Of a stretch of DNA of 64,000 bases, positions 6,849 through 49,889 are shown piece after piece. Each line of letters starts with the position of its first letter. Positions within the stretch are counted from its first letter, which is position 1. The stretch is from NCBI GenBank assembly GCA_036169595.1, contig CM069765.1, positions 4,691,001-4,755,000 on the forward strand. The letters run 5' to 3'. The translations under genes and the position numbers were made by a program. Below the pieces are notes generated by a model, which made no database searches, had not been told where the DNA came from, and saw only the letters and a list, made by a program, of their open reading frames with translations. This DNA comes from Dictyostelium firmibasis (taxonomy: Eukaryota; Evosea; Eumycetozoa; Dictyosteliales; Dictyosteliaceae).

Positions 6849-7439
6849 ATGGATAGTCTCTAGATTCTCTTTGAGCTTTATTTCAATAAATGAGCACTCT
6901 TCATGCCACATCTCTTTCGTTCCGCAGATGACAATAACCAGTTGAACTTTCTGAGATGAACGATCAACGGAGCATTGAATATATCGGATAAGTCCTGAAT
7001 GTTTTTTTCATGATAGGCAGCGGCTGGTCCAAGGCTATTACATACTCTTTCAATAAGCTCTACAGCTCTATTTATTGCAGGATATTGAACTCTGCAGTGA
7101 GGAATTGGAACGAGATTATGGGATCCTTTCTCAAAAATTCCAAACCGAATACGCCCTTCGACTTGTCTACAAGCAAGTTTGGCTCTTATTCTCCAAAGAA
7201 TCGGCTCTCCAAAGACAAAGGACGTCTCAATTTTTCTCAAGGAAATTTGAGCAAAAAAAATCTTTAGCTTGTTGATAAAGAATTGGATACGACTCAAAAG
7301 GTCGCTCTTTTTCACATCCAGGACATAGCTTAAAATGGGGACAGTGAAAAGAAAATAGTCTGTTCATAAGTAGATAGATTGTGTCTAAAAGCATGAAGTA
7401 CGCTTTAGTGTAAACAATGAGGAGATGAGATACAACCAA
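6849..7439 (-). pseudogene. Bacterial RNA m5U methyltransferase (TrmA/RlmD family), N-terminal fragment
   Basis: Two overlapping frames on the minus strand. The upstream one (7439-7227) holds CPHFKLCPGC, the Cys cluster that binds a [4Fe-4S] centre in RlmD/RlmC-type enzymes, followed by a YPILYQQAKDFF segment. The other (7315-6878) holds WRIRAKLACR and GIFEKGSHNLVPIPHC, typical of the region before the SAM-binding domain. These enzymes transfer a methyl group from SAM to C5 of a uridine in rRNA or tRNA. The catalytic domain is absent: the gene stops where the Harbinger element ends (6848). At least one frameshift lies between the two frames. Base composition is much less AT-rich than the element next to it. 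Confidence 0.55.
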
Positions 7440-7663
7440 ACAGTGAAAACAGAAAGTTTTTAGAGATAAAAAAGCCCAGTTATAAACAGATCCACATAGA
7501 CCTAAGAAGAAGAGATACTTTACATCTTCTTATTTATCATCATATCTCTCTGTGGATGTTGACAAGAAGCTAGAGGAGATAGTTTGAGAGCTAAAAAATC
7601 TGTTTTTGGTGTAGATTTGTCTTCAACCTAAATCAAGAATAAAAAAAGAGAAGGCGTCTTCTT
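7440..7663. other. Bacterial intergenic stretch between divergent genes
   Basis: No open frame of note. It lies between the minus-strand methyltransferase remnant and the plus-strand GlmU-like gene, so it should have held both promoters; I cannot point to convincing -35/-10 boxes. An AGAGAAGG Shine-Dalgarno-like motif sits just before the ATG at 7664. Confidence 0.4.
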
Positions 7664-8257
7664 ATGTCTTTTTGGCATTCTCCTGAGAATTTTTTTAACC
7701 TATCTAGCTTTTTACATAGCTCGATTTTTTATGATGTCGCTTACGTTTGGCAGGTGTTTCCGAGGATAGACTTGTACCTCTCTGCCCAAAAATGGAATTC
7801 TATTGATATTGGCGTATATAAGGGCGTAACTTTTGAAAATCCAGAGATGATCGGTGATGCTTGCGTAATCGGTCATACTACTGAATTAAAGCACTCTATT
7901 CTATTAGATGGTGCAAAAGCGGCTCACTTTGACTTTATCGGAGATTCTATCATTGGAAATGGGGTAAATATAGGCGCTGGTGTTAAATGTGCAAACCTTC
8001 GTTTCGATAACCAACCGATCTCTATTCAATATGAGGGCAAAAAAATAGCTACCGGGTTAAGAAAATTTGGATCAATTATTGGCGATAGCTCTCAAATTGG
8101 TTGTAATACTGTTTTAAGCCCAGGAACAGTTGTTGGAAAGAGTGCCTATTGCTATCCAACTCTCTATATTACCGGAGTTATTCCGGCTCATGCTAGAGTA
8201 AAATCGATGCAAAAAAGCACGATTGCTATAGAATCAGCGAATCAAAATTTAGATTGA
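7664..8257 (+). CDS. GlmU-like left-handed beta-helix (hexapeptide-repeat) protein of chlamydial type
   Basis: 197 residues, no visible break. The middle and C-terminal parts show hexapeptide repeats (IGDACVIGHTTELKHSIL, FIGDSIIGNGVNIGAG, IIGDSSQIGCNTVLSPGTVVG) that build a left-handed beta-helix as in N-acetyl/acyltransferases. It resembles the acetyltransferase half of GlmU without the nucleotidyltransferase half. In Chlamydia a short GlmU-annotated protein is encoded just before the ispA-type prenyl synthase; the same pair occurs here, 10 bases apart. Its substrate (a nucleotide sugar) is inferred from the family. The start is chosen for the AGAGAAGG motif upstream. It is one of the few unbroken bacterial genes in the window; expression in an amoeba nucleus is doubtful. 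Confidence 0.65.
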   Translation: MSFWHSPENFFNLSSFLHSSIFYDVAYVWQVFPRIDLYLSAQKWNSIDIGVYKGVTFENPEMIGDACVIGHTTELKHSILLDGAKAAHFDFIGDSIIGNGVNIGAGVKCANLRFDNQPISIQYEGKKIATGLRKFGSIIGDSSQIGCNTVLSPGTVVGKSAYCYPTLYITGVIPAHARVKSMQKSTIAIESANQNLD

Positions 8258-8267
8258 GTTTTCCACT

Positions 8268-46829: not shown

Positions 46830-48138
46830 ACAAACACCATTTGAACAAGAATTTTTTTGATAGGTTGAAATGATAGTCTCTATTCTTGCTTTGCTCGGGT
46901 AGAGAGGTGAATCCGTCTCTATCTTCTGTACTCGTTCACCTAGGATTCGGGCTTTTGGTACAAGGATGTAGTGTACTGTTTCTTCGCTATCTAAAAGTGG
47001 AGCTGGATCCATGGTCGGTTCAAAAAGACCATGAGTGAACTGAACGTACTCTCTTGTTCCTTCTCCTTTCACGCTGAAATAGGTTGTAAGAGACATCGTC
47101 TCATAGAACTCTTCAAGAGACTGTTTTTTCTCTTCATCGCATAATATTTCAAGCAAAAGAGGATCGCTTTTTCCATAATTGGATTTGTCTCAACATATTC
47201 TTGATTTCCTCGGATGAGGTGAACTTGGTTCTCATTCTCTTCTCGAAGGTAGGTGAGGAGCTCTAAAATGCGTACACCATATACGCCTCTATCACAGTAG
47301 TCTCCTAAAAAGATGAGATGAACTCCAGGTCTGCAGCGGTAGGCATTATCAAGAAGGTTACCTTCAAATTTTCAATAAGGCTTTTTAGATCACCATGAAG
47401 GTCCGCTCGGACGTAGATTTTTGGATCAAGTTTTGGATCAAGATCGACCTTATTGATATACCCAAAGTGATCTGCAGAATCTATAATATCTTTTTTAAAC
47501 TTCCCTGTATATTGAGATAGATGCTGCATAAATAGAGTTGTATTAAATGAACTATCATCTAAATAAAAACCTATTTTATCACTATCCCATGCTTTACTAT
47601 ATGTATCTATTAATTGAGCTACTTTTTCTTTACGCTTTTCCAAAAGAGGTGGGGTTATAGCCTCAACAGTTTCTACGTTTTGGGTTTCTATAGGGGATAA
47701 GCTATCGGCCTCTTTTTAATCCAAAAGAGGGTGTACAGTCTCATCTATTTTACCTATATCGATAGAAGGTTCTCCTCCATGAGGAAATATTGCAGCTGCT
47801 ATTGCCTCTATAGGAGGTGTGGTAATATTTGGGGTCTTTTCTATTTCGATATCTTTAAGATGGAGTCGAAATATGAGCTTACAGGTCAACATTACGATGG
47901 GGACTACTACTGTTAAATAGCTCAATATTTTGAGGGCAGAAAATGCAATTTGTTGAATTTTGCTCTCTTGAATGGTTCGTATTTCAACTCTTTTATGATT
48001 TTTATCTTGGATAGAGCCAGAAAGAAGGTAGATATTTTTGCCCGAAAGGTGGAGACATTTTTCTGCAAGCTCATGGAGATGCTGAATCCAGGTCTCTTTT
48101 TTCTCATATACAATTGGGGTAAAAAATTCTATTTTCAT
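46830..48138 (-). pseudogene. Calcineurin-like phosphatase 2, N-terminal and central part, broken
   Basis: The minus strand starts MKIEFFTPIVYEKKETW. A bilobed hydrophobic segment follows (ALKILSYLTVVVPIVMLTC), then a variable region, then the metallophosphatase core: VRADLHGDLKSLIENL (Asp-x-His), the GDYCDRG segment (in another frame, about 47290), a GNQE where GNHE is expected (about 47195-47210), and MSLTTYFSV. The His to Gln change removes a metal ligand or catalytic residue. There are several frame breaks (about four). It is cut by the DIRS element at 46829 and continues at 42066. Ser/Thr-phosphatase-like proteins with a membrane segment suggest host-cell signalling by the symbiont, which is inference. 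Confidence 0.7.
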
Positions 48139-48216
48139 TATAGCCCTATGCCTATCTTATCGGTTATTTATACAGTATATATCGAAAAAATAGCCTCTGA
48201 CTGTGTGATAACCATT

Positions 48217-49867
48217 CTATATTTCAGGAGAACTTACTGGATAGAGTGCACTTACTCTTGAGCTACTCTCTCCAGCTGTTCTGCATAAAGCCTGTTTTGT
48301 CCACTCAGCTACTTTGGTATTTTGTGTTAGAATATAGGCAACATCCATAGATAGGTACTTATTCTTGGAGTGAAGTGCCTTTCTTTCGGCTCCAATTGAG
48401 AGGGTTGTGACAACTACTGTTCTATCCCCATCAAGATGTTGAAATTGATGTTGATGGCCACGAAAGAGCATTTTAACATCATGCCTATCGCTGATTAACG
48501 AAAAATAGGCAGTAATGTCCTATACTTAGCCGGAAATTCCGATTGCCCGCATACCCATAACTAGCCTCTTTTTTCTGCTTGGTTACCACATCTCCCCAAT
48601 TATAGATTGTTTTATTATCGCACAAGTTAGAATTTTCTTTATGTTTGGCGACTATATTTTTTATTCTTTCAAAGGCTGTATAGAGGGGTGAATTTGGACC
48701 TATAAGCCGTATTCGCTGGCTAAAACGGCGAGTCTTTGGAATAAAGGTGTGTGTTAGATTGTTTTTATGATCAAGAAGAGCTGATAGGTCAACAGTTGGC
48801 TCAAAAAGGGCATGAGTAAACTGTACATATTCTCTTCGCTTCTCTCCCGACACGCTAAAATAGGTTGTAAGAGACATCGTCTCATAGAATTCTTCAAGGA
48901 CTTTTTGCTGTTTTATATCTTCTACTATTTGAACTAAGAGAGAATCTTGTTTTCCATAGGCGCGATTTGTTCGAACATACTCATGATTTCCTCGAATAAG
49001 GTGGACTTGGTCGCTATTCTCTTCTCGAAGGTGAGCGAGAAGCTCTAAAATGAGCAAGCCATGGACTCCTCTATCACAGTAGTCACCTAAAAAAATGAGG
49101 TGGACTCCCGGATTGCATCGATAGTTGCTATCAAGGAGCTTCTGCTCTTTAAGCACTCTCAGATTTTCAATAAGGCTCTTTAGATCACCATGAAGGTCCG
49201 CTCGAACATAGATTTTTAGATTTTTTTTGGGATCTAGATCGACCTTGTCGATATATCCAAAATGCAGCTCCTTATTTATCTCTTTTTTCGCGAATATTTC
49301 TACATGTTGAGAAAGCTTCTCTATAAACCTAGGAACGTTAAAATCAGTCTTAAATTGAAAGCACTTTTTTTTGGGGTTCCAATCTTCTATATAGGTTTTT
49401 ATGATTTGATCTGCCGTGTGGTCAGATTGAGTTGAAACAGAGGCCTGTAGAACTATCTGATCGATACTCTCTAAAAGATTCCTCTTCTCCTGAGTTATAC
49501 ATTCAGCTTGAGCGTTTTTTACCTGCTCTATTTTCTCTGCCGTCCCCTCTATTTTGACGTCTCCAAGATTTAATCGAAAGAGGAGCTTTTAGGTCAGGGT
49601 AAGGAGCGGAATAACTACTGTTAAGTAGCTGAATATTTTGAGGGCGCAAAATACAATTTCTTGAATCTGAGTGTCTTGAGTTTCCCTTATTTCAACTCTT
49701 TTGAGATCTTTATCTTTGATAGAGCCTGAAAGAATGTATACATTTTTGCCCCAAAGGTGGAGACATTTTTCTGCAAGTTCATGGAGGTGTTGGAACCAGC
49801 GCTCTTTTTTCTCATACACAATCGTTGAGAGAAAACCCACATTCATTATAGCTCTCTTTATATTCAA
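48217..49867 (-). pseudogene. Calcineurin-like phosphatase 3, nearly full length, lightly broken
   Basis: The minus strand starts MNIKRAIMNVGFLSTIVYEK, followed by LKIFSYLTVVIPLLTLT (membrane segment). A TAA follows at 49589-49591 where paralogue 2 has a Cys codon; the frame then continues with the variable region. The core has VRADLHGDLKSLIENLR, IFLGDYCDRGVHG, LIRGNHEYV and MLFRGHQHQFQ, that is, all metal-binding motifs of the PPP/calcineurin-like fold. One frameshift lies near 48530, before the last motif. About 550 residues. It is a tandem paralogue of phosphatase 2, 78 bases upstream. The N-terminal domain (WFQHLHELAEKCLHL) is shared and otherwise unknown to me. Confidence 0.75.
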
Positions 49868-49889
49868 AAGTAAAAATCGTTATAGCTAG

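Follow-up and report, generated by a model that had tools for sequence, protein, structure and literature searches.

Probable capture of a chlamydial chromosome fragment and its dispersal among centromere-like clusters of Dictyostelium firmibasis

How do recognisable bacterial genes come to lie within a chromosome of a social amoeba? The question is raised by a stretch of 64,000 nucleotides (hereafter "the window") from chromosome 1 of Dictyostelium firmibasis TNS-C-14, 4.691-4.755 Mb (C1:4691001-4755000), which lies within a DIRS1-rich, centromere-like cluster and holds, between its transposons, five blocks of decayed bacterial genes (B1 to B5; 14.77 kb in total, 38-40% GC). Very probably, a fragment of a chlamydial chromosome was captured, split by transposons and spread among the centromere-like clusters of this species.

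Bacterial blocks and their chlamydial affinity

The bacterial DNA of the window sits inside the chromosome (9,412,997 bases, in an assembly of 31,455,843 bases and 12 contigs), not on a separate bacterial contig. Its blocks were defined by self-comparison, base composition, and NCBIfam and Pfam family scans. Their edges, taken from self-comparison and from an empty site described below, are at approximately 6849-10295 (B1), 20791-22850 (B2), 31463-34596 (B3), 39000-42077 (B4) and 46829-49888 (B5). The following genes were found; except for RecA, all score under the curated whole-protein cut-offs of NCBIfam, as expected because the genes are fragments.

6849..7439, minus strand: B1, stump of an m5U methyltransferase gene (23S rRNA/tRNA, rumA/RlmD-like), cut by a chromodomain/DDE element at 6848
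7664..8257, plus strand: B1, GlmU-like nucleotidyl/acetyltransferase fragment (TIGR03992, E 6.5e-35, below cut-off)
8268..9213, plus strand: B1, ispA-like prenyl (farnesyl) diphosphate synthase (NF045485) in two frames (8268-8816, E 4.1e-33; 8818-9213, E 5e-9)
9237..10106, minus strand: B1, recA residues 70-357 (TIGR02012, 360 bits, above cut-off), free of stops and frameshifts
10092..10193, plus strand: B1, recA residues 41-73, inverted, with AT-rich joins
20779-21285 and 21341-21859, plus strand: B2, two further reading frames
22286-22864, minus strand: B2, part of a dinG/yoaA helicase (NF053712, E 1.9e-27)
31463..33959, plus strand: B3, recC fragments (frames 32110-33189 and 33396-33959; TIGR01450, E 3.8e-7)
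33956..34596, plus strand: B3, 5' part of recB, cut by element X (TIGR00609, E 7.3e-29)
39020..39886, plus strand: B4, 3' part of recB (TIGR00609, E 2.3e-13 for frame 39368-39886), with one in-frame stop
39883..41675, plus strand: B4, recD (NCBIfam, E 2.8e-76), with one frameshift at about 40002
41689..42077, minus strand: B4, 3' part of a phosphoesterase gene, split from its 5' part by a DIRS element
46829..48138, minus strand: B5, 5' part of that phosphoesterase gene and a DUF648-like gene (PF04890, E 0.0029, below cut-off)
48217..49888, minus strand: B5, second phosphoesterase and DUF648-like pair (metallophosphoesterase family PF00149, E 7.6e-9), about 77% identical to the first pair

The block sequences group with a bacterial symbiont lineage and not with host genes. 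The best relative of the window RecD is protein P0001 of a metagenome-assembled genome (MAG) named 'Chlamydia sp.' (82% over 98% of the query; next match 43%). A tree of 31 rows pairs these proteins with support of 100/100, and a 100/99 branch sets the pair off from Parachlamydia, Neochlamydia, Simkania and a Waddliaceae MAG. The window RecA is 96.9% identical over 288 amino acids to protein P0123, encoded on a contig of 1,543,817 bases and perhaps from a published genome of a Dictyostelium symbiont; the other recA of the D. firmibasis genome, on contig C4, reaches only 66% to B1 over 345 bp. In a comparison set of 232 genomes taken as Chlamydiota, the best among the matches listed were 46% (to part of RecD) and 41% for RecD, 83% for the P0123 RecA and 68% for LplT, a gene of the copies described below, and two scans of genome contigs for the donor genome yielded no close relative. 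The donor is chlamydial and related to bacteria now living in social amoebae, among which are two Chlamydia-like symbionts with circular 1.5-Mb genomes from the Dictyostelium isolates GS8B and M4B (PMC12324515, a 2025 preprint). Since obligate symbionts (Amoebophilus and Chlamydiae) are present in about 40% of sampled D. discoideum hosts (PMC11114107), opportunity for transfer would not have been limiting.

The linked genes are in donor order, LplT/Aas-recC-recB-recD, as in a symbiont insert. Upstream of recC, one copy on each of chromosomes 5 and 6 (L113 and L115) extends for more than 3 kb through an LplT/Aas-type acyltransferase-transporter gene, divergent from recC, and further frames; the window keeps just 46 bp of this stretch (31460-31505). 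Gene positions were compiled by hand for the first 59 Chlamydiota genomes among those listed. LplT and recD were both listed in 53 of the 59 and shared a contig in 34, with a spacing under 18 kb in 31 of these (median 7.5 kb) and opposite strands in 30 of the 31. On this comparison the LplT/recC-recB-recD layout of the insert is the common chlamydial one. Listed positions for recA as well as recD came from 47 of the 59 genomes; the two genes shared a contig in 15 and lay less than 100 kb apart in 12 of those, so that B1 and B3 to B5 can derive from one stretch of chlamydial chromosome.

Within the blocks, ATGA overlaps join recC to recB (33956) and recB to recD (39883), and GGAAGGA lies upstream of recD. 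The GC content at third codon positions (GC3) is 0.34-0.45 in six bacterial frames versus 0.16 in the recA on C4; at 0.35 in the DIRS reverse transcriptase, however, it cannot by itself tell bacterial from transposon genes. The m5U methyltransferase stump has no Pfam match of its own and was assigned through a copy at C1:4.668 Mb (L112:7882-8754), whose frame of 290 amino acids matches rumA (E 6.4e-33). One phosphoesterase of the tandem pair (46829-49888) weakly matches the NCBIfam family for the Dot/Icm effector Wip (E 2.8e-4, well short of its cut-off). No tRNAs were found in the window or in seven other loci, and no Rfam matches in the window and four other loci.

An earlier note on this DNA, made from its letters, had described five blocks of named bacterial genes between transposons, with operon features, in an amoeba host, and had proposed a chlamydial origin. 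The family scans recover these genes, the m5U methyltransferase by way of its copy; the overlaps and the Shine-Dalgarno motif are there; the assembly is that of D. firmibasis, in which the window RecA is listed as gene RB653_004938; and RecD, RecA and the LplT/recC-recB-recD layout bear out the proposed origin. The hairpin terminator that it listed fares less well: the hairpin between ispA and recA is weak (-8.8 kcal/mol over a 50-base stretch) and does not establish a terminator. Beyond that description are the inversion inside recA, the DIRS element inside a phosphoesterase gene, and copies on other chromosomes.

Copies on other chromosomes and their breaks

DNA searches of the host genome found twelve further places outside the window, on contigs C1, C3, C5, C6 and C7, with identities of 94-99%. 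The counts are lower bounds; the candidates scored were 40 of 49 for B3, 40 of 78 for B2 and 40 of 216 for B5.

B1, inverted: C1:4663023-4668081
B3: C6:38631-40102; C5:4138362-4140616; C5:4267250-4268428; C1:4522574-4523037
B4: C5:4122484-4125533; C5:4084077-4085191; C7:70629-71400
B5: C7:18179-19537; C5:4121755-4122491; C6:105621-106219; C3:4912982-4913580; C7:71393-72244 and 74603-75190
LplT stretch: C5, C6 and a second place on C5

The copies are confined to 4.5-4.75 Mb of chromosome 1, to the outermost 200 kb or so at an end of C3, C5 or C6, or to the small contig C7. By hand sum, the distinct bacterial sequence comes to about 21 kb, and the total with its copies to at least about 44 kb, or 0.14% of the genome. 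One annotated C5 protein, RB653_007972 (P0121), fuses chlamydial recC to a DIRS-like reading frame, and is probably an annotation artefact.

Several of these copies record what happened after capture. A C5 copy of B4/B5 (L143) runs on unbroken, TTTTGTTT directly followed by CACAAACACC, at the point where the window has a 4.75-kb DIRS element in the phosphoesterase gene, and a chromosome 5 copy of recB is continuous, without element X. Two C5 copies of recC have in common a stop and a join that deletes recC up to window position 32192. The stretch C6:105001-107000 (L145) is 99.6% identical over 1961 bp to C3:4912401-4914400 (L146); just 599 bp of it matches the window, so that the flanks must have been duplicated too. 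The shared deletion join and stop on chromosome 5, together with this duplication between chromosomes 6 and 3, indicate that copying continued after capture.

Most of the breaks traced are private. The window recD has one frameshift and the C5 copy a different frameshift and a stop; the in-frame stop of the window recB is absent from the C5 copy; the C6 recC copy carries two stops absent from the window; and break points differ between the window and L112 in rumA, and between L113 and L115 in LplT. The window recC lacks about 290 bp at about 33366 that the C5 and C6 copies keep, with a short repeat at the join. A solo long terminal repeat or transposon in the chromosome 5 and 6 copies was considered for this gap and rejected, since the letters are recC and the difference is a deletion in the window; a recD frameshift common to the window and the C5 copy was likewise rejected, each having its own. 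In eleven comparisons of coding stretches between copies, some of them overlapping, the differences amount to 0.5-2.0%. Private breaks at this divergence suggest that the genes could still for the most part be read when the first copies were made, shortly after capture as measured by that divergence.

The same observations bear on whether the assembler had joined DNA of a co-cultured chlamydial symbiont to amoeba repeats. Bacterial reads were present, since contigs of bacterial origin (E. coli food, perhaps symbiont) were removed when the assembly was made (PMC11193728). Yet the bacterial DNA is joined to host DNA at separate junctions in twelve further places on five contigs, its coding stretches differ by substitutions, stops, frameshifts and an inversion are private to single copies, a DIRS element within it has an empty site elsewhere, and one duplication between chromosomes includes its flanks. 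Copies with different junctions, an empty site and duplicated flanks could not be produced by joining a symbiont to repeats during assembly. A search of the assembly for chlamydial 16S genes, a weak test in which 5 of 64 candidates were scored and whose control recovered 16S in only 9 of 14 genomes, gave two matches only, one mitochondrial (on a 54,564-base contig) and one taken for nuclear rDNA. We regard such an artefact as extremely unlikely.

The insertion into the nucleus proposed by the earlier note is thereby upheld by twelve further places, where the copies have stops and frameshifts of their own and meet transposons at different junctions. Its estimate of about 15 kb holds for the five blocks of the window and falls short of the dispersed, multi-copy family, and its recent transfer stands in a relative sense, from the small divergence of the copies and the mostly private breaks, and not as an absolute date.

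Proposed mode of capture, decay and chromosomal setting

In the explanation that we favour, a Chlamydia-like symbiont would have contributed a chromosome fragment that became part of one of the DIRS1-rich, centromere-like clusters in an ancestor of D. firmibasis. There would have been one transfer, of a single stretch no longer than about 100 kb, captured perhaps by end-joining during break repair. Early copying would have been followed by function-free decay and by splitting through retroelements with a preference for such clusters, and ectopic recombination or segmental duplication may have carried pieces from cluster to cluster. The fragment would persist as passenger, repeat-like DNA in silenced heterochromatin, with no role as bacterial genes.

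Alternatively, overlapping symbiont DNA could have been captured several times, at different times or from different strains, into different clusters. Private breaks by themselves also fit this history, in particular those of the window and C5 in recD, of the window and L112 in rumA, and of L113 and L115 in LplT. Three findings speak against it: the join and stop common to two chromosome 5 copies, the C6 and C3 copies that span the same 599 bp and have common flanks, and differences spread nearly evenly over codon positions (28, 23 and 40 among about 2,454 sites per position; chi-square p 0.08), unlike those between living strains under selection. On balance, repeated capture seems unlikely.

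Some observations do weigh against a single, function-free insert. The window and C5 recD have no common break over residues 1-599, so that for these two a single capture is unproved. No second copy of B2 appeared among the 40 of 78 candidates scored, as repeated capture might also predict, and the placement of B2 in the same donor stretch as the other blocks is assumed. Where recA and recD share a contig, 3 of the 15 genomes have them 2-2.8 Mb apart, near its ends. The link of P0123 to genomes of Dictyostelium symbionts is one that we infer, and the junctions are taken from the published assembly. Of the 91 differences, 40 fall at third codon positions, somewhat more than at the others (p 0.08, with some comparisons overlapping); selection may have acted for a short time, or the symbiont strains may already have differed. 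Finally, recA retains 288 codons without a stop.

This last point bears on whether one or more of the genes, recA first, has been retained to serve the amoeba, which we consider very improbable. The open recA frame is annotated as RB653_004938 with a spliced model. The model nevertheless lacks the first part of the gene, residues 41-73 lie inverted alongside, the B1 copy on C1 ends within recA, another recA exists on C4, and the region is low in mRNA (PMC11193728). More generally, genes of the insert show frameshifts, stops, an inversion, deletions and splits, as expected of a decaying symbiont insert, and the pattern over codon positions is close to that of unconstrained DNA, third positions being slightly but not significantly over-represented; an intact frame under purifying selection, as in a domesticated gene, was not seen, the recA frame being the exception in its length. 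Broken frames, a transcript-poor region and the codon positions together make a function of the bacterial genes unlikely, and by their sequence these genes look non-functional.

Several transposable elements lie around and inside the blocks:

3488..6848: chromodomain and DDE_Tnp_4 element (PF00385, E 2.7e-10; PF13359, E 2.6e-10), adjoining the left edge of B1
10302..15335, minus strand: element of a second DIRS family, to the right of B1 (RVT_1, E 1e-28), about 81% to the first family
34597..36663: copy of element X interrupting recB; repeats of 15336-20790 and 52018-58889
42078..46828 (4.75 kb), plus strand: DIRS1-family element inside the bacterial DNA (RVT_1, E 1.5e-27; Phage_integrase, E 3.1e-10)

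A rearranged copy of the chromodomain/DDE_Tnp_4 element, its pieces 99% identical and part direct, part inverted, adjoins the right edge of B2 (22851-25939). At 43550-45445, after the reverse transcriptase and RNase H, the DIRS element matches a Dam-type N6-adenine methyltransferase domain (PF05869, E 6.8e-10). A Ty3-type element, which we take to be Skipper, has reverse transcriptase, RNase H and integrase at 60018-62780; two 173-bp pieces that are 100% identical (49889-50061 and 62813-62985) bound the stretch that holds it, which suggests a young insertion.

A further conceivable history is that a mobile element or virus carried the DNA and that transposition multiplied it, its dispersal tracking the transposon clusters. 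The copies differ, however, in their ends, their lengths and the host elements that adjoin them. The bacterial frames match no phage or plasmid family as such in the NCBIfam and Pfam scans (PHROGs were not searched), and B4 has no match among plasmid records, which also counts against this history. It is scarcely credible.

Family scans and self-comparison show DIRS1 and other retroelements to be dense in the window, as in a DIRS1 cluster. The window falls inside a DIRS1 block at 4.5-4.8 Mb of chromosome 1 that has low mRNA and high small-RNA coverage and is absent from D. discoideum (PMC11193728), in agreement with the DIRS-rich, centromere-like location that had been suggested for it. Coverage by genomic DNA is constant genome-wide (PMC11193728). 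In D. discoideum, CenH3 chromatin is reported at DIRS1 clusters, Skipper-1 is found together with CenH3, and DIRS-1 sits at the centromeres and accounts for half of them (PMC5633606); DIRS1-rich regions are taken as predicted centromeres in the 2025 preprint (PMC12324515). By analogy, the DIRS clusters of D. firmibasis may be centromeres. It is tempting to go further and to speculate that the chlamydial segments now form, like DIRS1, a centromere repeat in CenH3 heterochromatin, which recombination passes from one chromosome's centromere to another's and which helps to build and homogenise the centromeres of the host; this is a tentative proposal, which we hold to be doubtful.

Significance and comparison with known systems

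If the proposed capture is true, a nucleus in a model amoeba genus has received DNA from a lineage of symbionts whose relatives are alive today. The inserts would then serve as foreign sequence tags with which to trace the turnover of DIRS-type centromeres and their exchange between chromosomes and species. They also carry two warnings: a bacterial RecA has been annotated as an amoeba gene, and filters for bacterial contigs leave inserts within chromosomes in place. In the open-licence literature, which omits most papers of subscription journals, we found no earlier report that the nuclear genome of a Dictyostelium contains chlamydial DNA, and the words chlamydia and contamina- do not occur in the main text of the D. 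firmibasis genome paper (PMC11193728).

Multi-copy, heterochromatic inserts of symbiont DNA are already known from Wolbachia. Large Wolbachia insertions have reportedly been found in the genome of Glossina morsitans, a case that resembles the present one in the large symbiont insertions in a host genome and differs in its insect host and its donor. Closest in character are the Wolbachia inserts ('nuwts') on chromosome 4 of Drosophila ananassae, where endosymbiont DNA in the nucleus is likewise multi-copy and heterochromatic (PMC4299567). These derive from multiple Wolbachia genomes and amount to about 5 Mb on that chromosome (PMC4299567), whereas in D. firmibasis a chlamydial fragment, of which about 44 kb was found, lies in a protist host over the DIRS clusters of several chromosomes. 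In location and element family the D. firmibasis clusters resemble the DIRS1-cluster centromeres of Dictyostelium, accounts of which mention no bacterial component in the portions of those papers available to us (PMC5633606, PMC12324515); small RNA over the DIRS1 cluster is reported for D. firmibasis (PMC11193728). The Chlamydia-like symbionts of Dictyostelium, possibly a sister lineage of the donor, are living bacteria with 1.5-Mb circular genomes, in contrast to the nuclear DNA described here (PMC12324515, PMC11114107). What is new relative to these systems is the chlamydial donor, its lineage having living relatives in the same host genus, the amoebozoan nucleus, and the dispersal over centromere-like clusters of several chromosomes.

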